Assembly: GCF_018035235.1 (NCBI RefSeq)
Contig: NZ_WPCV01000003.1
Location: 1-64,000, forward strand
Reading direction: 5' to 3'
DNA: 64,000 bases
Source of the DNA: Citrobacter sp. On2M
GTDB lineage: Bacteria; Pseudomonadota; Gammaproteobacteria; Enterobacterales; Enterobacteriaceae
In this document: positions 32,658 through 52,294 of the stretch, piece by piece
Numbering within the stretch: position 1 is the stretch's first letter
Layout: the number at the start of each line of letters is the position of its first letter
Program-made: the position numbers and the translations under genes
Notes under the pieces: generated by a model
Database searches by the model: none
Seen by the model: only the letters and a program-made list of their open reading frames with translations
Told to the model about the DNA's origin: nothing

Positions 32658-33345
32658 AACTCACCGCCCCGCCCCAGTCGTTGAGTGCATCCACGCTGAC
32701 CCCGCTCAGGCCGCTGTGTCCCGTACTGGCTTCTGAATACGGTGCCAGCTGCGCCAGCGCCCGCTGGGCAACGCCGCTCAGCACCACCTCTTTCCCCTGG
32801 CTTTTCACCTTCGTCACCGCAAAGTAATAGGGTGTCGGATTCTTTATCCATACGCTGCCGTCCCGGTTCACCAGCGTCAGCTGTTTCTCCGCATCCTTTC
32901 TGCCCTCCACCAGAGCCTTTGGCCGGTAGAGCAGCTTCACCTGGGTGTTCATGGCTATCGCTATCACACTCCCGTCCGTCTCCTTCGGCTTCGGCGGGAT
33001 TTCCTGCACGTTGAGGCGGAACAGGGATTCCCGGTCAGACGGCAGGGTGGGATTCACATTCATCAGGCGGACTATCTGCCTGCCTTTCGGACCCACTCTG
33101 AAAAAAGGCGGGGACGGCACCATGAACACATCCGCTTTATTCTGAGAGACATTATCAATCCACACCTGGCCCCCATAGGTCTCCTGCGAACTGCTGCTCA
33201 CCTCAAAGGAGATGCTCTTCTTCCCCTCGTCATAGATAAAGCGCGTCCCGTTCAGGGTGAACGCCGCCATTGCGGAGCTGATCAGGGTCGTACCCAGTAC
33301 GACTGCCAGCGCTGCCTGCAGTACCATTTTTTTTCTGTTATTCAC
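32644..33345 (-). CDS. Periplasmic fimbrial chaperone
   Basis: A 233-aa PapD/FaeE-type chaperone: signal peptide to about residue 27 (AMAAF), the N-terminal immunoglobulin domain with the conserved YGGQVWIDN strand, FFRVGPKGRQIVRLMNVN and the SDRESLFRLNVQEIPPKP loop, then a second domain. Start GTG 33345 overlaps the usher stop by 8 bases. It stabilises pilins in the periplasm by donor-strand complementation and hands them to the usher. Confidence 0.93.
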   Translation of the reverse strand: MNNRKKMVLQAALAVVLGTTLISSAMAAFTLNGTRFIYDEGKKSISFEVSSSSQETYGGQVWIDNVSQNKADVFMVPSPPFFRVGPKGRQIVRLMNVNPTLPSDRESLFRLNVQEIPPKPKETDGSVIAIAMNTQVKLLYRPKALVEGRKDAEKQLTLVNRDGSVWIKNPTPYYFAVTKVKSQGKEVVLSGVAQRALAQLAPYSEASTGHSGLSGVSVDALNDWGGAVSYDVK

Positions 33346-35824
33346 AACGAATCTCCTGAACGGTTCCGGTATTTTCTTTTAAGCCTGCCGCGCTGAAGCG
33401 GCACTGTTTCCCGCTGCTCTGGCTGACGGTAATGGTTTTCGGGATGGACAGCAGGTTCATCAGCAGCACACCGTTGCGGGTGATAAAACCGGCATCCAGA
33501 CCCTGCTCCGTGGTGGCACTTCCTCCGGTGAGCGTGTTGCCCTGCGCATCCCGTACGCGCACGATGTAACGCAGTACGTTCTGGAAGCCAAACTCCCGGT
33601 AAATAATTGCTTTCTCTGTCGGCACCACGTCATACGAGGTGTTAAGCAGCTCGGCGCTGTCCGGAACGTTTTCCGGATTGATGCTGATGGTTGTCGGGTT
33701 ATACCCGGTCAGGTACAGTACCGTGCTGCCGCTGCTGTTGGTCGGCAGGGAGCCGTTAAAGGTCACCCCCGGGGTGTCCTTAATCCGCACCACCGCCACG
33801 GTATCGGATGCCTCTTTGGTCAGCAGCAGCCCGGTCTGTGCCGTGGCAATCGCCGACCCGGAAAGGTTGCCGGACAACGTGGTGGTCTCGCGGCTTTTTG
33901 ACACCGCCAGGTTGGTCTGTACCCGGTCAAAGGCATAGCTGACCGACGCCCCGGCTGTATTGTTGCTGCGTTCATCCGTCCCGGCATTGACGCTGTAGTT
34001 CAGACGCTCGTTCAGGGTCGCTGATGTGCTGGTATTGAATGACGTGCCGCTGTAGCGGTTGTAGCCTACCGAGTTACTGCTGTAATGGCGCACCCCGCCC
34101 AGGGTGAACGGAATACTGACCCCCAGCGAACCGGAATATTCATCCGACGTGGACCAGGCGCTGCGGGAATAGTTGCCGCTGAGGTACAGCGAGATGCCGT
34201 CCAGAACCGTGGTGCTGGCGGACAAAGACGCCCCGATGGCATCCCTGTCCCGGTTCCAGTAGGACTGCTGCCAGAACGACCCGCTGAGATACACACTGTC
34301 CAGCCGGTGGGACAGACGGGCTTCATAGCGGGCCTTCTCCCGGCCATCAAACCAGATGTAGTGGTCATTGAGCCCCAGGCCGTCCGGGTCATATATCTTG
34401 CGCCCGTACCCGTACTTCGGGTTCCAGTTCGCAAACTCGGTATACCCGGGACTCTGGTAACGGTAGGTCAGCAGCTGGATGTCGGTTTTACTGGTGAAAC
34501 TTTTGGCATACTTCACCGTGGCGCTCACCCCCTGGCGACGCGGGCCGTCATCATATTCTGCCCGGGAGCCATTCACACTGAACGCCAGCGCGCCCCACAT
34601 GCCCATGGACTGCGTCACCCCGATGCCGGCAGCCTGATACCCGCTGTGCAGCAGGGTGGCCATATTCAGCGTGGTGGATGACAGCCCCCAGTCCAGACTG
34701 GCCAGCCCGAAAGTACCGTTCCCGGAACTGAACGCATCGCTCAGCCGGTTCGTGTCGTTACGCTGTCCCACGGCCAGGTTATAGTTATAGTCACCCGGTC
34801 GCAGCAGGGAAGGCAGGGTGGCTACCGGGTATTCGGTCACCGTTTTACGGCCACCATCGTCTTCCACCGTCACCACCAGATTCCCGTTACTGGTGGAGTT
34901 CAGGTCATCCAGACGATACGGCCCGGACGGCACCACCCGGGAATAGATGGTATAGCCTCCCTGGGCCACCGTGATGCGGGAGGTGGTGGAAGCCACCCCG
35001 GTAATCACCGGGGCGTAACCCCGGGTCTGCCAGGTGCGCATATTGTTGTTGGAGCGCAGGGCAGCACCGTAGAAGCCGAAATCGCTGAACAGTTCAGTCC
35101 GCGTCTGCGAACGGCCAATCAGCAGGTCGCCCTTCACCTGACTGATGGCCGTGGACAGGGTCAGGTTGTTGGTGGTGAATTCATTGCCCCACGCATTGCG
35201 GGTGGCATTCATGTCACTGGATAAAATCCAGCGCCCCACATTCAGGCTGGTATTGAAACTGCCATAAGCATTGAGGGTATCGTCCCCGTATCCATTATTA
35301 TTCCGGGTCTGCACGTTCTGGTTAAAGTTGCCGTTATATTTCAGACGCAGACCGTTAATGCCGTAGTCCCAGCGGGCGGCATCGTTTTTTTCCGCCAGCC
35401 AGGCCTGGGGAATACCAAAATCCAGCGTCTGGCTGCCGGCGTCGTAACTGACTTTTGTGCTGTCCTTTTTCCCCGGCTGATAGCAGCCCCGGATGCTGTC
35501 AAAGGTGTCCTGGTAGGCCTGCGGCTTAAAGAAAATACCTGCATTCTGCAGCCACTCCGGGCTCAGGCAGAGCTGACCTGCCTGCTCATCCTCCAGGCTG
35601 ATAACCAGCGTCGAACGCCCGGTCCGGGTGCCGTTGAGCGAGACATCGACATAGTACTGACCCGCAGGGTATTTCACACCGTCCTTCAGGACTGAGGGGA
35701 CATCCGTGGTTCCCTGCAGGAATGCCGTGTTGAGTTCCGTGGCAGACGCAAAGGAAGAACAAATGCTCAGTGCCAGAAGTGACAGCGCAGGTTGTTTTAT
35801 TATTGTGGAGGTTTTTGTATTCAC
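33338..35824 (-). CDS. Outer membrane fimbrial usher
   Basis: An 828-aa usher starting at GTG 35824 behind AGGTCGG. After the signal peptide (to about residue 28, SFASA) comes the N-terminal chaperone-binding domain (FLQGTTDVPSVLKDG...), the 24-strand barrel with plug domain (from about 140 to 640) and C-terminal domains ending in CRFSAAGLKENTGTVQEIRC with the usher Cys pair. It secretes and assembles the pilus. Its nearest class (pi or kappa) cannot be fixed by eye. Confidence 0.95.
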   Translation of the reverse strand: MNTKTSTIIKQPALSLLALSICSSFASATELNTAFLQGTTDVPSVLKDGVKYPAGQYYVDVSLNGTRTGRSTLVISLEDEQAGQLCLSPEWLQNAGIFFKPQAYQDTFDSIRGCYQPGKKDSTKVSYDAGSQTLDFGIPQAWLAEKNDAARWDYGINGLRLKYNGNFNQNVQTRNNNGYGDDTLNAYGSFNTSLNVGRWILSSDMNATRNAWGNEFTTNNLTLSTAISQVKGDLLIGRSQTRTELFSDFGFYGAALRSNNNMRTWQTRGYAPVITGVASTTSRITVAQGGYTIYSRVVPSGPYRLDDLNSTSNGNLVVTVEDDGGRKTVTEYPVATLPSLLRPGDYNYNLAVGQRNDTNRLSDAFSSGNGTFGLASLDWGLSSTTLNMATLLHSGYQAAGIGVTQSMGMWGALAFSVNGSRAEYDDGPRRQGVSATVKYAKSFTSKTDIQLLTYRYQSPGYTEFANWNPKYGYGRKIYDPDGLGLNDHYIWFDGREKARYEARLSHRLDSVYLSGSFWQQSYWNRDRDAIGASLSASTTVLDGISLYLSGNYSRSAWSTSDEYSGSLGVSIPFTLGGVRHYSSNSVGYNRYSGTSFNTSTSATLNERLNYSVNAGTDERSNNTAGASVSYAFDRVQTNLAVSKSRETTTLSGNLSGSAIATAQTGLLLTKEASDTVAVVRIKDTPGVTFNGSLPTNSSGSTVLYLTGYNPTTISINPENVPDSAELLNTSYDVVPTEKAIIYREFGFQNVLRYIVRVRDAQGNTLTGGSATTEQGLDAGFITRNGVLLMNLLSIPKTITVSQSSGKQCRFSAAGLKENTGTVQEIRCE

Positions 35825-35890
35825 ACCGACCTGCCTTCAGAGCAAACAAGAAAGAACAAGACAAAAAAACAGCGAAAACCGGTAAAAGGC

Positions 35891-35925
35891 CCTGCCGGGC
35901 GCGCACGGAGTTGTGCGCGGGCAGG
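35891..35925 (-). terminator. Intercistronic hairpin between major pilin and usher
   Basis: CCTGCC-(GGG bulge)-CGCGCAC pairs with GTGCGCG-GGCAGG around a 6-base loop, 24 bases behind the pilin stop codon. It is followed by GCCTTTTACC on the minus strand, a weak terminator tail. Such hairpins let pilin be made in excess over usher and chaperone. Confidence 0.7.
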
Positions 35926-35948
35926 ACCTGATTTATATCCGGTGGGGA

Positions 35949-36500
35949 TTAGTTGTAAGCCACTACATAAGCCACAGCAGAGTTGTAATCACCCGCCTGA
36001 GCACCACCAATCAGCTGGGCGCTGAACTGGGCACCTTTGGCTGCGTCATTCAGGTCGGTCAGGGTTACCTGAGACACGCTCTGGGTCTTGTTAATGTCGT
36101 GAGCACCGCCCGTGGCGTTTACCGCGCTCAGTTTCACCATAGCGTCAGTGGCAGCACCACTCTGCGGCGCCAGGCCGGTTACTTCCAGCGGGCCGGCAAA
36201 CGCAAAGGATGCGTTGGTCATACCCGCAGGGTTACAGGTGGTTCCCGCTTTCGGTTTCAGGGCAAAGTTCACGACAGCCCCCTGGTTGGATGTGTCACCT
36301 GCCGCTGCTGCAGCAGTGGAGGTGGCCACGTTGCCCAGCTGAACCACGTTGCTTACCGCCCCGTTGGCTTCAGGCACGATGTCACAGGTGGTGTCAGTAA
36401 CAGTACCAATAAACTGAACATCTCCACCGTTTGCAGCCAGTGCAGAGCCAGACATCACAGCCAGAGCCAGGGCAGAAACAGTCAGTAAATGCTTTTTCAT
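35949..36500 (-). CDS. Major fimbrial subunit (FimA/PapA-like pilin)
   Basis: A 183-aa pilin precursor. The start ATG 36500 follows AAGGAAT and gives signal peptide MKKHLLTVSALALAVMSGSA, cleaved near ALAANG. The mature protein is small-residue rich with a Cys pair (TTCDIVPE and GTTCNPAG) and ends NSAVAYVVAYN, the alternating motif with penultimate Tyr used for chaperone recognition. It is the first structural gene of the operon, in the major-subunit position. Confidence 0.92.
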   Translation of the reverse strand: MKKHLLTVSALALAVMSGSALAANGGDVQFIGTVTDTTCDIVPEANGAVSNVVQLGNVATSTAAAAAGDTSNQGAVVNFALKPKAGTTCNPAGMTNASFAFAGPLEVTGLAPQSGAATDAMVKLSAVNATGGAHDINKTQSVSQVTLTDLNDAAKGAQFSAQLIGGAQAGDYNSAVAYVVAYN

Positions 36501-36983
36501 TTTATATTCCTTGTTTTGCGCCAAAATAAGCGCATTTGTTATCACTGATAATATTTTTCCGTTGATGGCAGAAACCATCATTAACACCGCCCGGACGGAC
36601 AGCGTTAATGATGAATGCTGCGTTTTAATTAAGCCCGGCAGCAATTTTGATGACCTTATACAGCCTGTCATGTTTATATGCTGCTCATGTTTATATACTG
36701 CACTTATATGGCTTATTCAGCGCAGATTGCTTTTATATTCAGCTCGTTATTTTACTGTTCATTTCACGGAACTGTTCAGAACAGAGATAACAGACATAAA
36801 ATTAATATCAGTCTCATGCCGGACCATGGCTACCGCACGAAAATAACAAGTGGTTAATTCCGTCATTACGAAAGATAAATATATAGAGGCGCCGCCCGAA
36901 CAACAAAAAAATAGATTTAATCAGTCATTAAAATATAAGAAAAGCAGAGGCCGTATTCTCTCCCGGAAGTAAAGAGAAACCTA
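36501..36983 (-). promoter_or_regulatory. Leader region between the PapB-type regulator and the major pilin
   Basis: About 480 AT-rich bases with no gene. It most likely holds the pilin promoter or a processed leader, as the papB-papA gap does in pap operons. I see no inverted repeats of the invertible fimS type. Confidence 0.45.
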
Positions 36984-39084: not shown

Positions 39085-39252
39085 CTACGATTTCCCATCC
39101 TTGCCATCTTTGCGGTGTCTGATTGGGATAATCCTTCTTTCCCTGATTTCCTCATCGATATCGAATAAGCACTCGTCGCAAAATTCTTTATCGAGAGAGA
39201 GCCACCGCTCAAGAACGCTTCTTTTTTTGTTGCAACGTGCACATCTCTTCAT
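39085..39252 (-). CDS. Possible small zinc-ribbon protein
   Basis: 55 codons from ATG 39252, with two CxxC pairs spaced 24 residues apart (MKRCARCNKK ... EFCDECLFDIDEE), the arrangement of a small treble-clef or ribbon. A weak AAGG site lies 9 bases upstream. A second frame overlapping its 3' end reads MGNRSPMNKIVSELLEPIEV, which could be the true C-terminus after a frameshift. Function unknown; it may be a relic. Confidence 0.3.
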   Translation of the reverse strand: MKRCARCNKKRSVLERWLSLDKEFCDECLFDIDEEIRERRIIPIRHRKDGKDGKS

Positions 39253-39830
39253 CTTTCTGCGCCTTGGTGACTTCATTATGTGAGTTACATGGAAAATGGA
39301 CGCAGCAAGCCTCGGCCAGATAACTAACCGTTATGAAAGGCTTTTCTGCGAGCAATATAAGACAAGGATAACCAGGCCTGACGCATGAAAGATAATCGTT
39401 TTGATAGATCAGTTTCTCGATATTGATCGTTAGTGCCGATCGATAAGAAGTGCGGGAACGTTAGACTCACCTCTGTTGCTTCATCATGATGATGGGACTG
39501 ATGGCCCTCGAATCTATATGTCTATTAGCATCGGCATGACAAATACCAAGCATTAACAAAACAAAAGGCAATCAAAAAAATACATGTGTATAAAAATAAG
39601 TGCAATTTATTCTGTTAATTCAATACTTCCTTTCGCCTAAGATTGCCTGCAATACCCCCATTTTAATACTATTTATTACTACATAACTAAATGAATTATA
39701 TAGAATAAATTGGCGATTGTCTCTACTGTTCCTTGTAAAAGTCATGGCTCCATACAACATTATTTTTAATTTTCTCCAGTTCAAAAAATCTACATACGTC
39801 ACAAATGATTTTACATTTGATAATGTATAG

Positions 39831-39844
39831 TTGTCATATGACAA
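39831..39844. promoter_or_regulatory. Perfect palindrome upstream of the mtnK-like gene (candidate operator)
   Basis: TTGTCATATGACAA is a perfect 14-bp inverted repeat, 36 bases upstream of the start codon at 39881, in promoter territory. I infer it to be the binding site of the SorC-type regulator at 44082-45068. I do not see it repeated elsewhere in the cluster. Confidence 0.5.
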
Positions 39845-39880
39845 GTTGATTATCATTCTGTGTAGACAAGGAGAACTGTT

Positions 39881-41140
39881 ATGACGGATTCGATTCCATC
39901 AGGTTACAAGCCGCTGACATGTGACACGCTGCCGGGTTATCTCTCATCCAGACTGACCCCTTCATGCGAACCGGGAGGTTTACCTGAAGAGTGGAAAGTT
40001 TCAGAAGTGGGGGACGGAAACCTGAACATGGTGTTTATCGTTGAAGGGACGCATAAAACCATCATTGTAAAACAAGCTTTGCCCTGGCTTCGTGCAGGAG
40101 GCGAAGGGTGGCCCTTATCTCTTAGCCGAGCAGGCTTTGAGTACAACGTCTTATGCCAGGAAGCAAAGTACGCAGGTCACAAACTGACACCGCAGGTCTA
40201 TTTTTATGACCCGGAGATGGCACTGTTTGCCATGGAGTATCTGACACCTCACGTAATATTGCGTAAGGAGCTGATTAACGGCAAAAAATTCCCTAATCTT
40301 GCTGAGGATATCGGGACGTTTTTAGCCCAAACTCTCTTCAGTACCTCTGACATTGGCATGCCGGCCGATCAGAAAAAAGCACTTACCGCCGAGTTCGCGT
40401 TGAATCATGAGCTGTGCAAAATCACGGAAGACTTGATTTTCACTGAGCCCTATTACAACGCTGAACGGAATAACTGGACTTCTCCTGAGCTGGACGATGC
40501 CATCCATAAGGCCTGGGCTGATGTAGAGATGCTCCAGGTTGCCATGCGTTATAAGTACAAATTTATGACAGAGGCACAGGCATTGTTACATGGTGACCTT
40601 CATTCAGGGTCTATCATGGTTACCGATACGGATACAAAAGTGATTGATCCAGAATTTGGTTTCATGGGGCCAATGGCATTTGATATCGGCAACTATATCG
40701 GCAACCTTCTGATGGCTTTCTTCTCACGCCCTGGGTGGGATGTGAATGAACAACGTCGCATTGCCTATCAGGAATGGCTGCTTCAACAGATTGTTGAGAC
40801 CTGGTCCGTTTTCACCCGGAAGTTCCGCCAGCTGTGGGACAACAAAACACAGGGGGACGCATGGCCGACAGAAATGTATCAACAGAACAGGGCCGCACTG
40901 AAGGACGCACAGGATCAGTTTTTTGCCACGCTGCTTGAAGATTCCCTGGTGAACGCCGGCATGGAGATAAATCGCCGAATTATTGGTTTTGCTGGCGTTG
41001 CTGAGCTGAAACTGATTGAAAATAAAGAGCTTCGCGCAGAATGTGAACGACGCGCTTTGACCATGGCACGCGATCTTATCGTCAATGCCCGCCAGTTTAA
41101 AAATATGGATTCCGTCATCCAGTCTGCAAAGGTTAAATAA
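39881..41140 (+). CDS. mtnK: 5-methylthioribose kinase-like sugar kinase
   Basis: A 419-aa MtnK-family kinase, the usual length. The N-terminal lobe has VGDGNLNMVFIV (nucleotide-binding loop) and the Lys of IIVKQALPW; the C-lobe has the Brenner motif LLHGDLHSGSIMV (about residue 235) and the metal motif VIDPEFGFMGP (about 250). The family phosphorylates C1 of 5-methylthioribose, and homologues also act on 5-deoxyribose. AAGGAG precedes ATG 39881. It is the first gene of a four-gene run with an isomerase, aldolase and transporter, with 9 bases to the next gene. Confidence 0.9.
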   Translation: MTDSIPSGYKPLTCDTLPGYLSSRLTPSCEPGGLPEEWKVSEVGDGNLNMVFIVEGTHKTIIVKQALPWLRAGGEGWPLSLSRAGFEYNVLCQEAKYAGHKLTPQVYFYDPEMALFAMEYLTPHVILRKELINGKKFPNLAEDIGTFLAQTLFSTSDIGMPADQKKALTAEFALNHELCKITEDLIFTEPYYNAERNNWTSPELDDAIHKAWADVEMLQVAMRYKYKFMTEAQALLHGDLHSGSIMVTDTDTKVIDPEFGFMGPMAFDIGNYIGNLLMAFFSRPGWDVNEQRRIAYQEWLLQQIVETWSVFTRKFRQLWDNKTQGDAWPTEMYQQNRAALKDAQDQFFATLLEDSLVNAGMEINRRIIGFAGVAELKLIENKELRAECERRALTMARDLIVNARQFKNMDSVIQSAKVK

Positions 41141-41149
41141 GAGGTCATT

Positions 41150-42259
41150 ATGAATATTAAAGGTAAACACTACCGTACGGTCTGGGTTTCCGGGGATGGA
41201 AAGGCGGTTGAAATCATCGATCAGACTAAGTTGCCTTTTAAGTTTGAGGTGGTGGCGCTTACCTCTGCAGAGATGGCCGCAGCGGCTATTCAGGAAATGT
41301 GGGTTCGGGGCGCTCCACTTATTGGTGTTGTTGCGGCATATGGTATTGCACTGGGAATGAACCACGACGCCAGTGACGTGGGTCTGCAGCGTTACTATGA
41401 CCTTCTTATCAAAACCCGACCAACTGCAATTAACCTCAAATGGGCTCTCGACAGGATGATAGCTACATTGAAGGTTCTCTGTGTATCTGAGCGCAAGAAT
41501 GCGGCCTGGGCGCTGGCGGCAGAAATTGCCGAAGAAGATGTCGCGTTATGTGAACAAATTGGATTACATGGCGCAGAACTCATTCGCGATATAGCCCAGA
41601 AAAAACCGGCCGGGAGAGTGGTAAATATCCTGACGCACTGCAACGCAGGATGGCTGGCGACTGTAGACTGGGGAACAGCGCTTTCTCCCATCTATAAAGC
41701 GCATGAAAACGGAATCCCTGTTCACGTCTGGGTGGATGAAACGCGGCCACGTAATCAGGGCGGACTCACGGCATTTGAACTGGGCTCACACGGTATTCCT
41801 CACACCCTGATCTCCGACAACGCGGGTGGCCACCTGATGCAACACGGTGACGTTGATCTCTGCATTGTGGGGACCGATCGCACCACGGCCAGAGGGGATG
41901 TCTGTAATAAAATAGGCACCTATCTTAAAGCGCTGGCGGCCCATGATAACCATGTTCCCTTCTACGTCGCGTTACCTTCTCCCACTATTGACTGGACTAT
42001 CGAGGACGGAAAAACCATTCCGATTGAACAACGTGACGGAAAGGAACAGTCCCATGTCTACGGGATAAATCCTCATGGAGAGTTGAGCTGGGTGAATACC
42101 GCTCCTGAAGGAACACGTTGTGGAAACTATGCTTTCGACGTCACGCCTGCCAGGTATATCACCGGCCTCATTACTGAACGGGGAGTCTGTGCCGCCAGTG
42201 AGTCTGCGCTGGCGGGGATGTTTGCTGACCTGAAGAGTAAAGCACTCCAGGACGAGTAG
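41150..42259 (+). CDS. mtnA: 5-methylthioribose-1-phosphate isomerase-like protein
   Basis: A 369-aa aldose-ketose isomerase of the MtnA/eIF2B-alpha family. Substrate loop VRGAPLIGV (about residue 54), catalytic Cys in LTHCNAGW (about 163), catalytic Asp in [19 protein letters not shown] (about 243). The segment reads [15 protein letters not shown] where salvage-type MtnA has RTRPLLQGARLTAWEL, hinting at the branch that works on deoxypentose phosphates; that is inference. It turns the 1-phosphate into a ribulose 1-phosphate analogue, the substrate of the aldolase encoded next. Confidence 0.9.
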
Positions 42260-42295
42260 CATTAAAACGACGACCACTGCTGTTAAGGAGCAGGA

Positions 42296-42937
42296 ATGGA
42301 AAGGATTAAGTTAGCAGAAAATATCATTTCCACTTGTCGGGAAATGAATGCGTCAGGTCTTAATCAAGGAACATCAGGTAATGTGAGTGCCAGATATACC
42401 GGTGGCATGTTGATTACACCGAGTGGGATCGCTTATTCAAAGATGACGCCGGACATGATTGTCTTTGTAGACGATAAGGGAATACCAGAAGCGGGTAAAA
42501 TACCATCAAGTGAATGGTTATTCCATCTGGCGTGTTATAAAGCCAGACCAGAATTGAATGCTGTCATACATACGCATGCGGTGAATTCCACGGCGGTGGC
42601 AATACATAATCATTCGATTCCGGCCATTCATTATATGGTGGCGGTGACGGGGACGGATCATATTCCCTGTATTCCTTACAATACCTTTGGCAGCCCTGAA
42701 CTGGCCGACGGTGTATCTAAAGGGATCAAAGAAAGTAAGTCCTTGCTGATGCAGCATCACGGTATGCTGGCCATGGACGTCACGCTGGAAAAGACGTTGT
42801 GGCTGGCGGGTGAAACCGAGACGCTGGCTGATTTATACATCAAATGTGGCGGATTACATCACGATGTTCCCGTGCTGTCTGAAGCCGAAATGACTATCGT
42901 TTTTGAAAAATTCAAAACGTATGGTTTGAAAGCGTAA
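42296..42937 (+). CDS. Class II (fuculose-phosphate type) aldolase
   Basis: A 213-aa class II aldolase/adducin-family enzyme. The N-terminal phosphate loop QGTSGNVSAR and SSEW (Glu near 73) are present; Zn ligands are the two His of VIHTHAVNS and the His of QHHGMLA. Related enzymes split L-fuculose 1-phosphate; in the DHAP shunt the homologue (Ald2, DrdA) splits 5-deoxyribulose 1-phosphate or methylthioribulose 1-phosphate to DHAP and acetaldehyde or methylthioacetaldehyde. Its place behind mtnK and mtnA points to this role. No mtnB-E genes are present, so this is not the universal methionine salvage route. Confidence 0.88.
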   Translation: MERIKLAENIISTCREMNASGLNQGTSGNVSARYTGGMLITPSGIAYSKMTPDMIVFVDDKGIPEAGKIPSSEWLFHLACYKARPELNAVIHTHAVNSTAVAIHNHSIPAIHYMVAVTGTDHIPCIPYNTFGSPELADGVSKGIKESKSLLMQHHGMLAMDVTLEKTLWLAGETETLADLYIKCGGLHHDVPVLSEAEMTIVFEKFKTYGLKA

Positions 42938-42968
42938 TTACAGCTGTATTTTAATTAATAACATATAA

Positions 42969-42989
42969 CAGCCATTCGCGGAATGGCTG
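42969..42989 (+). terminator. Hairpin between aldolase and transporter genes
   Basis: A perfect 9-bp stem CAGCCATTC / GAATGGCTG with a GCG loop, 32 bases past the aldolase stop. There is no T-run, so it may act as an RNA-stability or processing element rather than a full terminator, lowering or separating transporter expression. Confidence 0.5.
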
Positions 42990-43040
42990 CTATCCCCTCT
43001 GCCCACAACGATTGATTATAACTACCACAAGGAGTTATTT

Positions 43041-44045
43041 ATGTTTATCGTGGAATCGTATGCTGTTGCTATAATAATGTGTTTTATTACCATGATTTGC
43101 TGGGGGTCATGGGCGAATACAACCAAACTTGTAAGTAATAAAAAATGGGAGTTTCCTCTATTTTATTGGGATTACTCAGTTGGATTATTGCTGTGCTCTT
43201 TGTTATTTGCCTTCACTTTGGGGTCTACGGGGGAAGCCGGTCGTAGCTTTATACCTGATATTCAGCAGGCGAGCAGTGGTAGTCTGATGTCGGCAATACT
43301 TGCAGGGATTATTTTTAATATTTCCAATATCCTTCTGGTCGCTTCTATTAATCTTGCCGGTATGGCGGTAGCTTTTCCTGTGGGTGTGGGGCTGGCACTG
43401 GCTCTGGGTGTGATCACCACTTATATCGGCAATCCGAAGGGCGATCCGCTCATTCTGTTCCTCGGTGTCGCCTGCGTTGTGATCGCCATTATTTTTACCG
43501 CGATAGCCTATGGTCGTGTCACTCAGGAGGCGGATAAATCCCGTCGTAACAAAGGTCTCATCACTGCTATTCTGGCGGGTATCATCATGGGATGGTTTTT
43601 CCGCTTCCTGGCTGACTCCATGTCAGACAATTTCAGTCAGCCTGCCAGCGGTCTGATGACGCCGTACTCAGCACTTGTCCTGTTTGCCATAGGGCTGTTT
43701 TTGTCGAACTTTATCCTTAACACGCTGGTTATGAAAAAGCCTATTTCAGGAGAACCTGTCAACGGGAAAATGTATTTTTCCGGAAGTTTACGGGATCATG
43801 TTTGTGGCTGGTTGGGCGGTATGATTTGGTGTGTCGGTCTGGCATTTAGTCTGATTGCGTCTGGTCAGGCGGGTTATGCTATTTCCTACGGTCTGGGACA
43901 GGGGGCAACAATGATTGCCGTGATCTGGGGGGTATTCATCTGGAGAGAATTTGCCAGTGCGCCAGCCGGAACCAATAAACTGCTGCTGACCATGTTTATT
44001 TCATACATTGTGGGTATTATTTTAATTATCGCCGCTAATCAATAA
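43041..44045 (+). CDS. GRP/ureide-permease-like sugar transporter
   Basis: A 334-aa inner-membrane protein with about ten hydrophobic segments, related to the glucose/ribose porter (GRP) and ureide permease families of the drug/metabolite transporter superfamily (MICWGSWANTTKL in helix 1, FYWDYSVG in helix 2, conserved GVGLALALGV and GYAISYGLGQGA). AAGGAG precedes ATG 43041. It follows the kinase, isomerase and aldolase genes, so it is the likely importer of 5-deoxyribose or 5-methylthioribose or a similar pentose. The substrate is inferred from context only. Confidence 0.82.
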   Translation: MFIVESYAVAIIMCFITMICWGSWANTTKLVSNKKWEFPLFYWDYSVGLLLCSLLFAFTLGSTGEAGRSFIPDIQQASSGSLMSAILAGIIFNISNILLVASINLAGMAVAFPVGVGLALALGVITTYIGNPKGDPLILFLGVACVVIAIIFTAIAYGRVTQEADKSRRNKGLITAILAGIIMGWFFRFLADSMSDNFSQPASGLMTPYSALVLFAIGLFLSNFILNTLVMKKPISGEPVNGKMYFSGSLRDHVCGWLGGMIWCVGLAFSLIASGQAGYAISYGLGQGATMIAVIWGVFIWREFASAPAGTNKLLLTMFISYIVGIILIIAANQ

Positions 44046-44048
44046 AAT

Positions 44049-44070
44049 ACTGCCCCAACTATGGGGCAGT
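44049..44070. terminator. Bidirectional terminator between transporter and regulator
   Basis: Stem ACTGCCCC / GGGGCAGT with an AACTAT loop, flanked by A-rich and T-rich sequence, between two convergent genes. Confidence 0.8.
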
Positions 44071-44081
44071 TATTCATTCTT

Positions 44082-45068
44082 TTACTGCGGTAATTCACAC
44101 GCCAGCAAAAACTCAGCCGTTCCTTCATCAACAATCAGGTCTGTGACATATCCCCCCAGCAGGGCACCCAGCGTCGCGTCATAGCCTCTTTCCCCACCAG
44201 CAAGAAAGATCTTCCGTTCAATCTGCCTTAACTGAGCCAGACTTATGCCAAGAATACGCTGGTCAACATCAGCCACGACGGGTACTCCTTCCTTGTCATA
44301 GAAGCGACCACAAATGACACCTACCGCACCTAAATCCCGATAGGTCTGCATTTCCTTCTTATTCAGCACACCCACTCGAATAAGGGGATTTTCATCAAGA
44401 GCATTACCTACGACGAAAAAGGCTTTCGTACAACGAGTCAGAACGTCAAAATTCGAGCGAATAATAGGTTCGGCCTGTAACTCCATTGCCAGTCTGGCAC
44501 TTGATACCACGGCAGGAACATGAAGCGAAGCGACACGTCCTGAAAGCTTGTAAGCGATTTGTGATGAGGATTCAATAATCGTCAGGTCTGGTTGAGAGGG
44601 CATGGAACCGAGCATCTGAATAACGGTGACATTTTTACATGACTTCGGCGTCATGGTTTTGCTCATCTGATGGATTGTTCTTCCCCAGGCAACTCCCAGC
44701 ACATCACCATTCTCAATTACCTGATTCAGATACATGCCACCGGCACGTGAAAGACGAGTACGCATCAGCTTTGTATCATCACGCTTTCCGGCATGTTCGC
44801 CATCAGGCACGATGATCACTCTCTGGAGATTGAATTTATCGCGAATTTGCAAAGCAGCGTCGATAGATCCAAAGACATTCACGTCCAGGTTGATATGAAC
44901 CAGTCCATTTTCCCGGGCTGTTTGCAGGTATTTGACGACCGTGACGCGGGACACCCCCATGATAGCTGCAACTTCAGTCTGGCTTTTGCCTTCCTGATAG
45001 TACAGCCATGTTGCATGAAGTACGGGATCATCATTGAACAGGCTGCTGTTTGTTTGATCTCTATCCAC
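44082..45068 (-). CDS. SorC/DeoR-type sugar-binding transcriptional regulator
   Basis: A 328-aa SorC-family regulator. The N-terminal HTH is in residues 15-60 (YYQEGKSQTEVAAIMGVSRV), the sugar-phosphate-binding domain in 65-325 with the family end LAGGERGYDATLGALLGGYV and TDLIVDEGTA. Relatives (LsrR, SorC, DeoR of Bacillus) bind phosphorylated pentoses or polyols and lift repression. It is convergent to the mtnK-mtnA-aldolase-transporter run and is the only regulator beside it. LsrR, a paralogue, is encoded at the window end. Confidence 0.88.
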   Translation of the reverse strand: MDRDQTNSSLFNDDPVLHATWLYYQEGKSQTEVAAIMGVSRVTVVKYLQTARENGLVHINLDVNVFGSIDAALQIRDKFNLQRVIIVPDGEHAGKRDDTKLMRTRLSRAGGMYLNQVIENGDVLGVAWGRTIHQMSKTMTPKSCKNVTVIQMLGSMPSQPDLTIIESSSQIAYKLSGRVASLHVPAVVSSARLAMELQAEPIIRSNFDVLTRCTKAFFVVGNALDENPLIRVGVLNKKEMQTYRDLGAVGVICGRFYDKEGVPVVADVDQRILGISLAQLRQIERKIFLAGGERGYDATLGALLGGYVTDLIVDEGTAEFLLACELPQ

Positions 45069-45416
45069 TTTGTATACCTGTATTAAACCGGGGAAATGCT
45101 TATCTTAACCCTGTTTACCCGGAGAGTTGATGCAGATTGCCAGTGGCATGATTTTATACAGATATTTTATTCTTTTACATGAAATAAACCAGCATACCAT
45201 TTGAGCGGTCGCCTTCTGTTCCTCTATGCTAAAAAGCCGGAGGCATGCTCCGGCTTTATCAGTATTACTGAGGGTAAACTCCTTCAGCACAATAAAACGG
45301 TTCAATATCACCCCTTTTTGATCGTCAGCGATTCGTCACCGCGCAGACAGTTACCGCCACTCACTAAATGATGAGGGCCAGTGAACCGACAGGTTGGCTC
45401 ACTGGCGAGAACCTGA
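45069..45416. other. Intergenic region between the SorC-type gene and yjhF
   Basis: About 350 bases. It holds the regulator's promoter and a strong palindromic hairpin at 45233-45257; no gene is supported. Confidence 0.5.
45233..45257. terminator. Palindromic terminator-like hairpin
   Basis: AAAGCCGGAGGCATGCTCCGGCTTT, apart from an unpaired G near the centre, folds into a stem with A- and T-tracts, between the SorC-type gene and yjhF. It may end the yjhIHGF transcript. Confidence 0.7.
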
Positions 45417-46766
45417 TTATAAAACTAAGCTGGCGAACAGAATAAAAATCAGCCCACTGATGGATAAGAGTGTGGACATCAGCGTCCAGGATAACAGCGT
45501 TTCTTTGGTGGTAAGGCCAAAAAAGTCTTTAATCATCCAGAAACTGGCATCGTTAACGTGAGAACAAATACAGGATCCGGCACCGGTAGCCAGCGTAATC
45601 AAGGCCAGGTTGGTATTGGGATGTACTGCCAACAGCGGGATGACCAGACCGGCGGTAGAGATCGCCGCGACGGTGGCTGAACCCAGACAAATACGCAGGA
45701 ATGCGGCCACGCCCCAGGCCATCAGGATCGGGTTAATATCCATACCCGAAACCAGGGTGGAAATATACTGACCGACGCCAGAATCGATGAGAACTTGCTT
45801 GAATGCACCACCACCACCGATAATCAGCAGCAGACCAGCAATACCCGCGATAGCTTTTCCGCAAGAATCCATCAGGTCAGGGATTGTTTTCCCGCGCCCC
45901 AGGCCCATGGTATAGATCGCGAACAGCAGTGAAATCAGCATGGCGATCGTCGAGTTACCTAAGAACAGTATCACGTTGTAGAATAAGCCTGAATCCGCAG
46001 CACTTTTGGCATGAGTCATCTGGATGATGGTGACAACCGCCATCAGGATCACCGGCAGCATTGCCGTGAGAAAACTTATCCCAAAGCCAGGCATTTCGCT
46101 TTCGCTGAATCGGCGGGTCGAGCCGAGAGAGGCAATATTCCCCTCTTTTTTAAAGGCGTCTGGAATAATGCGCTGGCAAAATTTATTCAATATCGGGCCG
46201 CAAAGAATAAAGGTTGGAATGCCGACAATGATACCGTATATCAGTACCAATCCTACATCAGCGCCATATTCTCTGGCGATAACTGTCGGGCCGGGGTGCG
46301 GCGGCAAAAAACCGTGCGCGACCAGCAAACCGGAAAGCATCGGCACACACATAAACATCGGTGATATTTTTGCTTCACGGGCAATAGCGAATAAAATAGG
46401 TACCAGAAGAATTAAACCGACTTCGAAAAAAAGTGCAATACCGACAATAAACGCCGAACAGACCACTGCCCAGTCAAGTTTATTTTTCCCGAAATAATTC
46501 AGCATGGTCAGCGCTATTCGCTGTGCACCACCCGCATCGGCCAGCAAGCGACCGAGCATAACACCGAAACCAAATATCAAGCCAATATGTCCCAACGTAC
46601 CGCCAAGTCCGGATTCGACTGAGGTGACGACTTTACTCAAATCCATACCACTGGCGATGGCGACAGCAATCGATACAATAATTAACGAAACAAACGTATT
46701 AAGCTTAATTTTTATGGTTAAAAGCAGGAGTAAAGCAATCCCTGCCACAACGATAATTAGTGGCAT
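45417..46766 (-). CDS. yjhF: GntP-family aldonate permease YjhF
   Basis: A 449-aa inner-membrane transporter of the gluconate:H+ symporter family with about twelve membrane segments and the family motif [17 protein letters not shown] (residues 65-80) and [10 protein letters not shown] (about 152). Same length as E. coli YjhF. It is the last gene of the yjhIHGF set, so its substrate is likely the aldonic acid processed by YjhG and YjhH. The experimental substrate is not established to my knowledge. Confidence 0.93.
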
Positions 46767-46872
46767 AACGTCCTCTCATAACAGGGTAGCGACCCGTCAT
46801 TATCCGACTGAGTAAATAACGAATGATGTGTAGCCGGATAATTCAGGTGTCTGGATGTTTTTATTTATGCTT

Positions 46873-48840
46873 TCAGTTTTTATTCATAAAATCGCGCAAA
46901 GCCGCGCCAATTTTGTTTACATCATAAATACAACCCGTCCATGTCCCGCCACTCACGGCCTGAAGCATTGCCCATAGCCGGGTATCATCTGGCAATTCAG
47001 GATCGGGAAGTAAATCCTGATGGCTGGGTCTGGCATTTAATATTGCAGTTGCCTCCTCCTGTGAAGGTAATTGTTCATCGCGACGGGTGCCGAGGAAATT
47101 GACTTCGCCGTGAAGCTCGCGACAATCAATTTTAATTTCAATGATATCCCCGGTGCGTAATTTACCGATGGGCCCTCCGGCCAGTGCTTCTGGCCCCACA
47201 TGGCCGATGCATGCGCCAGTAGAAACGCCCGAGAAACGTGCATCGGTGATTAACGAAACATGCTTACCGTATGACAGATGCTTCAGGGCACTGGTAACCT
47301 GGTAGGTTTCTTCCATCCCGGTACCGGAAGGTCCAACGCCGATAATGACCAGAATATCGCCCGCCTTGATCTTGTCATGCTTGATATCGTAAATCGCACT
47401 TTTCTCGGACAGATAAACCTTCGCCACACCTTTATGGTAATAGATACCTCGTTCATCAATCACCGAGGGATCAATGGCGGTGGATTTGATCACCGATCCT
47501 TCTGGCGCAATATTGCCCACCGGGAACGTGATAGTTGAGGTCAACCCGCGCGCTTGTGCTTGCTGTGGCGACATGATCACGTCGTCAGCGTTGATTTGTT
47601 CCTGCTCGAGAAGGAGTTGCTTGAAGTGCTGACGCCGTTCGGAGTGCTCCCACCAGTCGAGGTTTTCCTTCAGCGTGCTGCCGGTAACCGTCATAACATC
47701 TTCATGCAGCAACCCGTGGCTTCGCAGATGCAACATGACTTCCGGCACACCGCCTGCCATGAAGGCATTGACCGTTGGATGATAAACCGGGCCATTAGGC
47801 AGTACGCTCACCAGTCGGGGCACGCGCTTGTTGATGCGGATCCAGTCGTCAACGGTCGGGATACGGCAACCTGCCTGGTGAGCGATTGCCGGGATGTGTA
47901 ACAACAGGTTTGTTGAACCACCGAACGCGGCATGGACCGTCATCGCATTCTCTATTGCTTTATCGGTGAGAATTTCCCGGGTGGTGATGCCTTTTTGACA
48001 CAGGTTCAGTGCCGCTCGTGCAGAAGCTCTGGCGATCTCCTGCCACACAGGCTCGCCGGAAGGAGCCAGTGCTGAGTGTGGGATTGCCAGCCCTAATCCT
48101 TCGGCCACCACCTGAGATGTTCCGGCGGTGCCTAAAAATTGACAACCGCCACCTGAAGAGGCACAGGCTTTACAGCCCGCACGGCGTGCGTCCTGTAGAG
48201 ATAATTCGCCATTGGCGAAGCGTGCGCCAATAGTCTGCACCTTGCCGTTGTCTTCTCCGTCCTTTGCGGGTAGCGTCGCGCCACCGGGCACCAGCACCGT
48301 CGCTATGTTGTGCTGTGCGGCGAGCGCCATCATAGTGGCTGGCAGCCCCTTGTCACAACTCGCCACGCCAATGACAGCTTTCGCGCCGGGCAGAGAGCGA
48401 ATAAGACGGCGCATCACCATTGAGGCGTCATTACGGTATGGTAGCGAATCAAACATCCCCGTTGTGCCCTGAGTGCGTCCGTCACAAGGGTCGGAGACGT
48501 ACACGGCATAGGGCAGGGCATGGTTGGCTTTAATGACTTCGGCCGCCGCTTTCATCTGGATATCCAGCTCGTAGTGCCCCTGGTGTAGCGCCAGCGCCAC
48601 GGGCTTACCCTCTGCGTCGCGTAATCCACCGAGTGTACTGAGCAGTAAAATACCGTCCCGATCCAGCTCGTCCGGAGACCAGCCCATTCCGGCATTCATG
48701 GTCATACCGAACAGATCCCCGCTCGGGCGATTGATAAGCATCTCTGCGGTTAATGGCAGTTCGCCGTCCGGGCCATCGGCGTGCGTTCTGACGGTGTAGA
48801 TATCGTGACTCTCGTCAGCAAAAATATTGCGAACAGACAT
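46873..48840 (-). CDS. yjhG: D-xylonate dehydratase YjhG (IlvD/Edd family)
   Basis: A 655-aa dehydratase, start MSVRNIFADES at ATG 48840 behind GGAGAAA; a longer frame from 48921 is not needed. Iron-sulfur cluster cysteines are seen in SDPCDGRTQG, GVASCDKGLP and CKACASSGGGCQF. It dehydrates D-xylonate to 2-keto-3-deoxy-D-xylonate in E. coli. It lies 10 bases behind yjhH. Nearly identical to the E. coli protein. Confidence 0.95.
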   Translation of the reverse strand: MSVRNIFADESHDIYTVRTHADGPDGELPLTAEMLINRPSGDLFGMTMNAGMGWSPDELDRDGILLLSTLGGLRDAEGKPVALALHQGHYELDIQMKAAAEVIKANHALPYAVYVSDPCDGRTQGTTGMFDSLPYRNDASMVMRRLIRSLPGAKAVIGVASCDKGLPATMMALAAQHNIATVLVPGGATLPAKDGEDNGKVQTIGARFANGELSLQDARRAGCKACASSGGGCQFLGTAGTSQVVAEGLGLAIPHSALAPSGEPVWQEIARASARAALNLCQKGITTREILTDKAIENAMTVHAAFGGSTNLLLHIPAIAHQAGCRIPTVDDWIRINKRVPRLVSVLPNGPVYHPTVNAFMAGGVPEVMLHLRSHGLLHEDVMTVTGSTLKENLDWWEHSERRQHFKQLLLEQEQINADDVIMSPQQAQARGLTSTITFPVGNIAPEGSVIKSTAIDPSVIDERGIYYHKGVAKVYLSEKSAIYDIKHDKIKAGDILVIIGVGPSGTGMEETYQVTSALKHLSYGKHVSLITDARFSGVSTGACIGHVGPEALAGGPIGKLRTGDIIEIKIDCRELHGEVNFLGTRRDEQLPSQEEATAILNARPSHQDLLPDPELPDDTRLWAMLQAVSGGTWTGCIYDVNKIGAALRDFMNKN

Positions 48841-48850
48841 GAGTTTCTCC

Positions 48851-49756
48851 TCAGACTGGTAAAATGCCCTGCGCGGTAAGTAGCGCGCGGACTTTATCTT
48901 TTGCTTCTTCTGATGCTTCAAGAATCGGTGGCAAGCAATACGTCTCTACAGGCAACCCGACACACTGCATGCTGTATTTGATCAGTGAGACAAACGGTGT
49001 TTCCAGGGCGTAAATAGCGGGCAGTTGTAGTAGTTTTTTATTCAGCGTCGCGGCGGTAGCCAGATCGCCTTCACGCCAGGCGCGGTAGATGCCGACGGAG
49101 AGTTCCGGAGCAAAGTTAGCGCTGGCGGTTATCGCACCGTCGCCGCCCAGCAGCATCGTATTCAGCAAATGGTCGTCATAACCGCAGAATACAGAAAACG
49201 ACGGGCGTATCGACTTAACTGTGTTGATCATCGTACGCAAGTGACCAACGCTGTCGATGGTGTCTTTGATGCCAACGATATTCTCGTTTTGCAGAGCCAG
49301 CCGTGTCACGGTCTCCGGGGTTAAGTCCTGACCCGTCAGATCCGGAAAGTTGTACAGGATCACCGGCAGAGTGACACTACGGGCGATCTGCTGGTAATAG
49401 TCGTCAAGATTGCGTGGTGCGACTTTCCAGTAGTAGGGGTTGATAGCGACGATACCATCAGCGCCGCAGGCTTGTGCATGCTGCGCAAGTTTCACCGCTT
49501 CGTCAGTGGAGGGCGAACCGACGCCAATCAATACCGGCACTCGCCCACCCACAACGGCCACGGCTTCTTCGGCGAGCGCCATGCGCTGGGCTGTATTCAT
49601 CTGGCTAAATTCACCACCGGTACCCAGGTAAAACAGTCCGTCGACCCCTTTATTAATCAGGAAGTCGGCAACTTCGCGCATTGCCGTTTTATCAAGGGTT
49701 CCGTCACGATGAAACGTGCTGGATACCGGTGGAATAATGCCGCGGAATTTTTTCAT
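48851..49756 (-). CDS. yjhH: 2-keto-3-deoxy-pentonate aldolase YjhH (DapA family)
   Basis: A 301-aa DHDPS/NAL-family aldolase starting MKKFRGIIPP at ATG 49756. The Schiff-base Lys lies in IVGIKDTID (about residue 164), with the Tyr of ILYNFPDLTG (about 136) and the GGEF phosphate/pyruvate loop. It splits 2-keto-3-deoxy-D-pentonate to pyruvate and glycolaldehyde. It is placed 4 bases behind yjhI and 10 before yjhG, one operon. Confidence 0.94.
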   Translation of the reverse strand: MKKFRGIIPPVSSTFHRDGTLDKTAMREVADFLINKGVDGLFYLGTGGEFSQMNTAQRMALAEEAVAVVGGRVPVLIGVGSPSTDEAVKLAQHAQACGADGIVAINPYYWKVAPRNLDDYYQQIARSVTLPVILYNFPDLTGQDLTPETVTRLALQNENIVGIKDTIDSVGHLRTMINTVKSIRPSFSVFCGYDDHLLNTMLLGGDGAITASANFAPELSVGIYRAWREGDLATAATLNKKLLQLPAIYALETPFVSLIKYSMQCVGLPVETYCLPPILEASEEAKDKVRALLTAQGILPV

Positions 49757-49760
49757 TACC

Positions 49761-50549
49761 TCAGTTTCCTTTTCGTAAATGCTCATTTTCGTTTCTGTAT
49801 CCCAGCCCATATGATATTTGCCCGGCGCATTTCCGGAGCAATTCCAGATAGCTGTCTATCTTATTTCCTGAATAAACCACTGGATCGCCAGAAAGAGAGA
49901 TTGCATAGTTAACCCTGTTATACATATTGAATACCGGCATACTTAAACATACCGCTCCATAGGTTGATTCTTCGTTGTCTATGGCCCATCCCCGAAGTCG
50001 TGTTTTTTGTAATTCTTCCAGAAACAACTTTTTATCGGTAAATGTGTTGTGCGTATGCGGGGTTAACGTGAGTGCCTCTAAAAAATAATCCAGTTCTTCT
50101 CGTGTCTTCCAGGCTAATAACGCCTTACCTAACGCAGTAATATGCAATTCAAGTTTTTTACCAATCCAGCTTTTGCTCGTCGGTACCGAGTCCGGACTTT
50201 CGACCTTGTCGAGATAGATAGCTGAAATGCTCTCCATCGCCCCAAGATGACAAACCAGTCCACTTTTCAGCGACAACTCCTGCATTGGCCGCTTAGTCAC
50301 CTCAAATATATTTTGACGGTGTAACGCCTGACAACCCAACTCGTAGTTTTTTATTCCCAGTGAATAGTAGCCGTTTTTGTTTTTAATTAAGAAACCGCAT
50401 TCCACCATTACATTTAATAAATTAAGCAGGCTGCTTTTTGGATACTGGAATTTATTTAATAACTCCATATAACTGGCCATGCCAACCCATGCAATGTGGG
50501 TTAATATTTTTTCGGCACGGACTAATGAATTACATCCTTTGCGAACCAT
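49761..50549 (-). CDS. yjhI: IclR-family transcriptional regulator YjhI
   Basis: A 262-aa IclR-type regulator: N-terminal winged HTH ([10 protein letters not shown] ... [15 protein letters not shown], residues 12-65) and a C-terminal ligand domain (about 85-250). It is the first gene of the set and probably autoregulates it in response to an aldonate or keto-acid. The sequence and length match E. coli YjhI. Confidence 0.92.
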
Positions 50550-50851
50550 AATGGCTCCTCCTTGCTCATGGAATAAATGGTATCGACATTACATAATGGA
50601 AAATATGCTTTGTTCAGCATGCTGAACCGTAATGGAGTGATTAAATGTGATCTTGTACGCAGTTTGAATAATGAATCCAGTACAGTCACATTTAGTAAAT
50701 GAGAATAAAAAGTAGATGGAGTGTTCTTGCAACATAGTTGAGTGTGGATCGCGTATAGGACTTCTTTATTCTTTCGAGTGCATCGTCAATATTTTTCAAC
50801 GGGTGCCATTGAGCATTTTTGCTTGAAATCCCTCTCGAACGAACCTGCTTA
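50550..50851. promoter_or_regulatory. Promoter region of yjhIHGF
   Basis: About 300 AT-rich bases between sgcR and yjhI, both on the minus strand. It should contain the yjhI promoter and the end of the sgc transcript. TTCAGCATGCTGAA near 50613 is a perfect 14-bp palindrome and a possible YjhI operator. Confidence 0.45.
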
Positions 50852-51634
50852 TCATTTTATTGAATGAGGCAAAAACAACTGACATCCGGCTCGCTGATAA
50901 CGCCGTGCAATAGTCTCAGGTAACCCGCTGTCACTGATGATCGTTTTAATACATGAGAGTGTTGCTACAGCATGCGGCTCAACGGCATCAAATTTAGAGT
51001 GATCGGCCAGGAGAATAACTTCACGCGAGCGTTGAATAATCCGTGTTTTCACCCCGACTTCAAACATGGTGGCATTGGTGATACCCGTCTCCAGCGACAG
51101 CGCATCGCAGGAGATATACGCACGTTCTACGGAAAAGGCATTGATCATCTCCAGCGCCAGACTCTCTCCTACCGAAAAATAACCCGGGCGAATCAGTCCA
51201 CCGATAATGTAGCTTTCCACATGGGGAAAACAGCCCAGCTCATTGGCGATTTTAATGTCGTTGCAGATGACCTTTACCCGCGCATCGGCCAGGCATTTCG
51301 CCAGTTCGAGGCAGGTTGAGCCGGAGTCGAGAAAAAAGCAGTCGCCATCTTTGATCATTGTTCGGGCAAGGGCGGCTATTTCTCTCTTCGCCACAGATTG
51401 CAATGTGCGTTTCACATCGAAGACGTACTCTTTGTCGTCGGTACTGTCGTCGAAGTCGAGACAACCGTGACCGCGGATCATGCCCGGGTACTGGTTGGCA
51501 ATATACTGAAAATCACGGCGAACAGTCGCTTCCGCATAGCCAAAAAGTTCCATGGCCTGCTGTGTGGAGAGGTGACGATGTTGCCACAGGTAATGCAGCA
51601 TCTGTTTGATACGGTCAGGTCTCTGTTGGCTCAT
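50852..51634 (-). CDS. sgcR: DeoR-family transcriptional regulator SgcR
   Basis: A 260-aa DeoR-type repressor, start MSQQRPDRIKQ at ATG 51634. The HTH (STQQAMELFGYAEATVRRDF, residues 23-42) and the sugar-phosphate domain with DGDCFFLDSGSTCLELAKCL are clear. It is the last gene of the sgc operon and presumably represses it. Nearly identical to E. coli SgcR. Confidence 0.93.
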   Translation of the reverse strand: MSQQRPDRIKQMLHYLWQHRHLSTQQAMELFGYAEATVRRDFQYIANQYPGMIRGHGCLDFDDSTDDKEYVFDVKRTLQSVAKREIAALARTMIKDGDCFFLDSGSTCLELAKCLADARVKVICNDIKIANELGCFPHVESYIIGGLIRPGYFSVGESLALEMINAFSVERAYISCDALSLETGITNATMFEVGVKTRIIQRSREVILLADHSKFDAVEPHAVATLSCIKTIISDSGLPETIARRYQRAGCQLFLPHSIK

Positions 51635-51650
51635 CAGAAACAATCTCCTC

Positions 51651-52283: not shown

Positions 52284-52294
52284 AAGCGCCTCCG

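Follow-up and report, generated by a model that had tools for sequence, protein, structure and literature searches.

The window analysed here, a 64,000 nucleotide stretch of the Citrobacter sp. On2M genome (contig NZ_WPCV01000003.1, positions 1 to 64,000), contains a five-gene cluster that, to judge from its sequence, is the dihydroxyacetone phosphate (DHAP) shunt operon described earlier in E. coli ATCC 25922. We put at about 0.86 the probability that it is an operon of the ATCC 25922 type through which another enterobacterium can draw carbon from 5-deoxyribose and 5-methylthioribose, with the roles predicted below for its permease, for an operator of the repressor MtnR and for CRP. The pathway core is not new, as growth and regulation data are published (PMC10986504 and PMC12632272, in their available parts); what is added here is a host other than E. 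coli and a probable exchange of the operon, a predicted operator, a predicted permease substrate and a probable relic in K-12. A broader reading, to which we give somewhat better than even odds, is that the five genes are a mobile cassette, that MtnR controls 5-deoxypentose use across the Enterobacterales through a conserved TTTACATATGTAAA twin operator (20–21 bp, flanking the -10 element), that the permease is a recruited member of a ribose family that is interchangeable with a ribose-type ATP-binding cassette (ABC) importer, and that K-12 YjhU was left behind when the cassette was lost in an IS1-linked event and is not a regulator kept for other genes. The comparison thus offers testable proposals for the operator, the substrate class of the permease and the relic origin of K-12 yjhU. 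The features of the cluster are:

39881–41140, + strand: mtnK, 5-methylthioribose/5-deoxyribose kinase (TIGR01767 (MTRK), 514 bits, cut-off 275)
41150–42259, + strand: mtnA, 5-methylthioribose-1-phosphate/5-deoxyribose-1-phosphate isomerase (TIGR00512 (salvage_mtnA), 410 bits, cut-off 279)
42296–42937, + strand: ald2, FucA-like class II aldolase, giving DHAP and an aldehyde (PF00596 (Aldolase_II), 171 bits)
43041–44045, + strand: GRP-family permease, predicted 5-deoxypentose importer (PF07168 and PF06800, both above gathering score)
44050–44071, no strand: likely shared terminator, an inverted repeat that separates the two convergent stop codons (read from the sequence as ACTGCCCC-N6-GGGGCAGT)
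44082–45068, - strand: mtnR (yjhU), SorC-family repressor (PF04198, 266 bits)

The shunt operon and its E. coli counterpart

The original prediction, made from the letters alone, placed a kinase, an isomerase, a class II aldolase and a transporter on one strand and a SorC-type regulator convergent to them, and this arrangement stands: all five reading frames are open, the family scores are those given above, and the same five genes are annotated in identical order in ATCC 25922. At least 80% of a 6-kb stretch from this locus is found in one place in 1075 of 5426 complete E. coli genomes (about 93% identity among the 20 matches listed), and because of this recurrence, the shared gene order and the family scores, a chance arrangement of the five genes is excluded. 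The proteins are 95% (MtnK), 95% (MtnA), 98% (Ald2), 98% (permease) and 99% (MtnR) identical to those of ATCC 25922; this identity to tested E. coli enzymes settles the enzyme assignment, and it bears out the earlier proposal of a 5-deoxyribose/5-methylthioribose catabolic cluster working as a DHAP shunt. The solved relatives of MtnK are 2olc (methylthioribose kinase) and 2pyw (deposited as an uncharacterized protein). MtnA has Cys164 and Asp243, within THCNAG and GTDR motifs, whose roles we presume from the family. The best NCBIfam model for Ald2 is the FucA subfamily NF005984 (361 bits, cut-off 264), and the protein, whose alignment with E. coli FucA (1fua/1dzy) needs no gaps, retains E73, H92, H94, Y113, H155 and Y209, which we take to be catalytic from their FucA roles.

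According to the available parts of the two papers, the ATCC 25922 operon supports growth on 5-deoxyribose, 5'-deoxyadenosine and 5'-methylthioadenosine (MTA) (PMC10986504), the four genes form a single operon in E. coli that is induced by substrate and repressed by glucose, YjhU (renamed MtnR) represses this operon and its deletion derepresses it, and CRP is required for expression (PMC12632272). The latter paper, from 2025, calls the function of the permease and the recognition sequence of MtnR unknown. By extension from the E. coli work, the Pfs nucleosidase, which is encoded in this genome (TIGR01704, 435.6 bits, above cut-off), would free 5-deoxyribose from 5'-deoxyadenosine or methylthioribose from MTA, MtnK would phosphorylate C1 of the sugar, MtnA would make the 1-phospho-ketose, and Ald2 would cleave the latter to DHAP and acetaldehyde or 2-methylthioacetaldehyde.

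Probable exchange and loss of the operon

The operon lies in a segment much more similar to E. coli than the backbone of its host. The first 20,000 positions of the window match E. coli at 83.7–83.8% identity over 74% of their length (among four matches listed), and for 5389 of the 5427 matching E. coli records the best place falls in the 80–90% identity band. PhoE of the host is 90% identical to a protein cluster named E. coli, 92% to one named Salmonella and 97% to a further cluster. Two shared blocks surround the cluster:

39085–56724, no strand: block common to the E. coli ATCC 25922 island, including yjhFGHI and sgc genes (94.5% identity over 17,657 bp)
39599–45327, no strand: five-gene shunt module with both flanks, common to Citrobacter amalonaticus S646, where the neighbouring yjhF is missing (92.3% identity, 5.75 kb)

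Positions 43988–56724 match K-12 at 95.3%, and Providencia rettgeri has the same five genes at 78–90% protein identity (MtnR 90%). Since the block is 94.5% identical against about 84% for the backbone, and since the module recurs in Citrobacter without the rest, these comparisons fit a horizontal exchange of the operon, in either direction; the use of S-adenosylmethionine leftovers as food looks like a trait that has been passed between enterobacteria. In C. amalonaticus S646 a frame recognised by eye as a phage-type integrase is found some 3 kb away from the module. The operon query matched 93 records in a plasmid collection, 89 of them only 60–80% identical (those of them listed being short mtnA matches in alpha-proteobacteria); three records held at least 80% of the query, all from E. 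coli and one of them chromosome-sized.

Probable loss of the operon can be traced in E. coli, where a megablast-level search placed yjhU (at least 80%) in 1591 of 5426 genomes. Some part of the operon, if only a 58-bp tail of the permease gene, was found in 1586, pieces reaching beyond the last 65 bp in 1231, and at least 80% of the operon in 1071, so that by subtraction, with the sets assumed to be nested, some 355 genomes retain the tail only. In K-12 the annotated IS1F, at what we take to be the IS1 end, is joined without a gap to the terminal 58 bp of the permease gene (GACCATG...), and yjhU follows. In G351, a congener of the window's host, mtnR is cut after about residue 237, and 18 kb of its 53-kb contig gave no tblastn match to the shunt genes (the rest of the genome was not searched). 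Because of the tail-only genomes, the K-12 junction and the truncated gene in G351, mtnR without the operon looks like a remnant, and K-12 yjhU, beside the permease tail and IS1, is a probable relic. This disagrees with the suggestion in PMC12632272, whose available part explains yjhU in shunt-less strains by retention for other targets such as efeUOB and reports an effect on efeU.

Several neighbouring gene groups were recognised by eye. Just upstream of the shunt module in C. amalonaticus S646 (L007, 767–3664) are FucO-like iron alcohol dehydrogenase, MaoC-like and DapA-like genes, the first of which could encode an enzyme that reduces the aldehyde product. A chaperone-usher fimbrial cluster occupies positions 29332–36671 of the window, between the tRNA-Thr gene and the shunt, and fimbrial-type genes also flank the shunt in P. 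rettgeri (L003, 25–4203). An lsr-like (autoinducer-2 uptake) gene set follows the sgc genes at 57851–63392; beyond the window (L037, 32–2305) it is continued by an lsrK-like kinase and a partial lsrR-like regulator, and then by hydrogenase-1-like and puu-like genes, in an order that seems unlike that of E. coli.

The permease and the neighbourhoods of MtnR homologues

The permease scores 67.9 bits against PF07168 (Ureide_permease) and 30.7 bits against PF06800 (Sugar_transport, cut-off 26.3). Its family is very large (8000 candidates were scored, all below 1e-40), so the nine homologues outside shunt operons that were compared (four loci and five further places) are a small sample. A ribokinase gene is adjacent in seven of the nine (L004 and L006, by Pfam PfkB; L008, by eye; L032, L033, L034 and L035, by tblastn); the two lacking it are Commensalibacter L005 and the more distant L036. 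Nucleoside hydrolase genes follow in the Dysgonomonas locus, and in a FastTree phylogeny of 13 sequences the shunt permeases group with a ribokinase-flanked Photobacterium protein (support 0.86).

MtnR homologues, collected at E <= 1e-60 in the order and E <= 1e-70 in families, numbered 4 of 394 in the order, 5 of 296 in the G178 family, 14 of 392 in the host's family and 2 of 140 in the G274 family, which makes 21 genomes after removal of overlaps. The mtnK, mtnA and ald2 genes adjoin the homologue in 16 of them. Among these 16 shunt loci the GRP permease is present in two (the window and G1069) and an ABC importer in nine, all in genomes of the same order (G178, G274, G941, G963, G931, G761, G1280, G1339 and G1406); four have neither transporter by tblastn with these queries in the fetched stretch, and G1112 ends at a contig edge. 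The importer of G178 matches the Pfam families ABC_tran, BPD_transp_2 and Peripla_BP_4. In the G178 family an intact 143-amino acid frame lies between mtnR and the importer in four of five loci, and the one scanned is an RbsD_FucU protein (mutarotase); the presence of a mutarotase and that of a sugar importer both agree with import of a free reducing sugar. A mutarotase-like frame in the same position in G761 (L060, 9871–10571) appears interrupted.

The ribokinase neighbours in seven of nine relatives and the ABC importer that takes the permease's place in nine shunt operons make import of the free 5-deoxypentose likely, by a protein best described as a ribose-type permease recruited for these sugars. 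Two observations weigh against the overall reading of the operon. The five MtnR genomes other than the 16 (G351 and four genomes of one genus) have no shunt in the fetched stretch, and K-12 given just mtnK, mtnA and ald2 by a plasmid can grow on 5-deoxyribose (available part of PMC10986504), which means that the permease is not strictly needed; because of the latter result the "own transporter" of the original prediction stays a prediction. It is unlikely, in our estimate, that the permease is merely co-located and serves as an exporter of 5-deoxypentoses or a carrier of some unrelated compound (a ureide or a drug): its top Pfam match is indeed Ureide_permease, the public names include "multidrug DMT transporter permease", and it was dispensable for growth in the K-12 test, but neither the ribokinase neighbours nor the substitution by a sugar importer would be expected of such a protein, and PMC12632272, in its available part, describes it as co-transcribed and induced with the enzymes. 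Among the open-licence papers listed by the literature searches, none gave an MtnR operator or a transport assay of this permease; PMC6302742 (available part) refers the reader to a separate supplement for methylthioribose transporter experiments.

We note that the four genomes of one genus without shunt genes in the fetched stretch (L065, L066, L067 and L072) have MtnR homologues of 58–61% identity, and that molybdate-type ABC genes, recognised by eye, come after the regulator in L065.

MtnR and its predicted operator

MtnR has a helix-turn-helix and a PF04198 sugar-binding domain, and its solved relatives are B. subtilis-type DeoR (8r7y), SorC (2w48) and LsrR (4go1); no GlpR/FucR-type DeoR family domain is among the seven Pfam families that match it at E <= 0.001. 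Proteins of the SorC family bind as oligomers to paired sites. Induction of B. subtilis DeoR proceeds through a covalent lysine, on which the literature search found no paper; this mode was rejected for MtnR, where the aligned position is leucine in the window and lysine in 0 of 15 aligned homologues. By these sequence comparisons MtnR groups with SorC, LsrR and B. subtilis-type DeoR, and not with GlpR/FucR (the assignment in PMC12632272, available part). The candidate control elements upstream of mtnK are:

39799–39803, + strand: TCACA, possible right half of a CRP-type site whose left half is weak here (from the TCAC-to-pair distance)
39810–39823, + strand: predicted MtnR operator palindrome 1, TTTACATTTGATAA (pair scoring and bare-pattern search)
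39826–39831, + strand: predicted -10 element TATAGT, between the palindromes (by eye from the promoters)
39831–39844, + strand: predicted MtnR operator palindrome 2, TTGTCATATGACAA (pair scoring and bare-pattern search)

MtnR, as a SorC-type oligomer, would likely sit on the two palindromes, 21 bp apart and flanking the -10 element, and would likely leave them when a sugar phosphate of the pathway binds; CRP would likely activate from just upstream. A spacing of about two helical turns between paired palindromes fits such an oligomer.

The operator was sought in 18 upstream regions as pairs of TTTACATATGTAAA-like palindromes 20–21 bp apart. A first scan for twin palindromes at 22 bp spacing gave nothing clear and the spacing scan then pointed to 20–21 bp; no word shared consistently by the promoters emerged from a comparison of words. 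The G1280 and G1099 groups supplied the consensus, and nine other regions, used as the test set, have a mean pair score of 20.22, against 16.24 (standard deviation 0.33) for dinucleotide shuffles, of which 0 of 500 reach 20.22; pairs at neighbouring spacings, 20 and 21 bp excluded, score at most 17.89. The best pair starts 10–11 bp after TCAC in 13 of the 18 regions (scored by script), and the pair claimed here does so at 11 bp in both the window and E. coli. Across 27 stretches (577,168 bases) every occurrence of the perfect twin TTnnCAnnTGnnAA-N7-TTnnCAnnTGnnAA is in front of mtnK; there are five such records, two of which (L007 and L061) are taken for the same Citrobacter place counted twice. 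With up to two mismatches the bare pattern gives eight pairs at 21 bp and one at 20 bp in these stretches, all in shunt promoters, against six pairs at the other 25 spacings between 14 and 40 bp combined. Where a locus has a mutarotase gene, the pair is found in the interval that separates this gene from the importer. In 10 of the 18 regions the best match to a CRP-type site consists of TGnT(A/G) or TGATA and, 6 bp later, TCAC(A/T).

These statistics are support and not proof, because the spacing of 20–21 bp was chosen from a scan that included the test promoters and because five of the nine test regions come from one family. Other points also weigh against the proposed operator and promoter. 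The bare twin with up to two mismatches is present in only 7 of 17 distinct shunt promoters; scores are weak in G963 (18) and also in G274 (19) and G1406 (18), where the pair does not follow TCAC. A second pair in the window, overlapping TCACA, equals the score of the claimed one (21), and in E. coli such an overlapping pair scores 21 against 20 for the claimed one. The window, E. coli, Citrobacter and Providencia have a poor left half of the CRP-type site, and TATAGT implies a start about 43 bp upstream of mtnK, against 72 bp for the published P1 (PMC12632272, whose available part places P2 at 188 bp in the text and at 218 bp in a legend). G1112, which is truncated at a contig end, has a score of 15. 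The claimed pair is preferred because it aligns with those of Citrobacter and Providencia (scores 21 and 23) and fits the bare palindrome pattern perfectly.

The published semi-palindrome CAAAT-N-ATTTG, noticed by visual inspection according to the available part of PMC12632272, is an improbable site for MtnR in place of the twin palindromes. It is present in the promoters of the window, E. coli and Citrobacter, but within 160 bp upstream it is absent from 15 of the 18 regions (in G1112 the likely promoter is cut off), among them that of Providencia, whose MtnR is 90% identical. The predicted MtnR operator is given as a pair of TTTACATATGTAAA-like palindromes 20–21 bp apart that recurs in several lineages, with weaker matches in the most distant ones.

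Role of the pathway and comparison with known systems

There is little probability that the operon serves mainly to detoxify 5-deoxyribose and not to scavenge carbon. The reaction sequence is identical to that of DrdK-DrdI-DrdA in Bacillus thuringiensis, for which a disposal role is described (PMC6079011, available part), but deletion of the operon in ATCC 25922 left the sensitivity to MTA, 5'-deoxyadenosine and 5-deoxyribose unchanged (PMC10986504, available part), substrate induction and glucose repression fit catabolism (PMC12632272), and the permease or ABC importer genes within these operons fit uptake. That the cluster is instead the entry to full methionine salvage, from methylthioribose to methionine by MtnK, MtnA, MtnB and so on, is scarcely credible: MtnK and MtnA belong to families of that pathway and Ald2 scores 69 bits against the mtnB model, but this is under the cut-off of 137 bits and far from its 361 bits with the FucA model, and sulphur is not significantly recycled in E. 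coli according to the available part of PMC10986504. The original prediction had taken mtnB, mtnC, mtnD and mtnE to be absent, which holds genome-wide for mtnD (no match to ARD, PF03079) and for mtnB (six matches, Ald2 among them, all below cut-off and the best at 74.6 bits); the full pathway was thus not found in searches that covered mtnB and mtnD, mtnC and mtnE not having been searched.

Among known systems, the DrdK-DrdI-DrdA proteins of B. thuringiensis are alike by description in having a kinase, an isomerase and a class II aldolase that act on 5-deoxyribose, and they differ in that their role is disposal whereas that of the E. coli shunt is carbon use; the available part of PMC6079011 adds that some 5-deoxyribose clusters hold sugar transporter genes and a mutarotase homologue. 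The rbsUDK operon of Lactobacillus sakei joins a sugar permease and a ribokinase, the same neighbour that the relatives of the window's permease have (PMC3146418, available part); here the partner is a 5-deoxyribose kinase, and the likeness to RbsU is one of gene context alone. The ABC-type shunt operons share the MtnR homologue and mtnK-mtnA-ald2 with the window, but an RbsACB-type ABC importer replaces the permease. The closest counterpart is the E. coli ATCC 25922 operon, with the same five genes in the same order and orientation and 94.5% DNA identity over 17.7 kb. In the account given by the available part of PMC12632272, E. coli always has the operon at the end of the leuX island (leuX was not located in the host genome), whereas the operon of the window stands in front of the sgc and lsr-like genes, with a tRNA-Thr(CGU) gene about 13.8 kb away. 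The operon is thus present outside E. coli, and its DNA is much closer to that of E. coli than is the host backbone, which is only about 84% identical.

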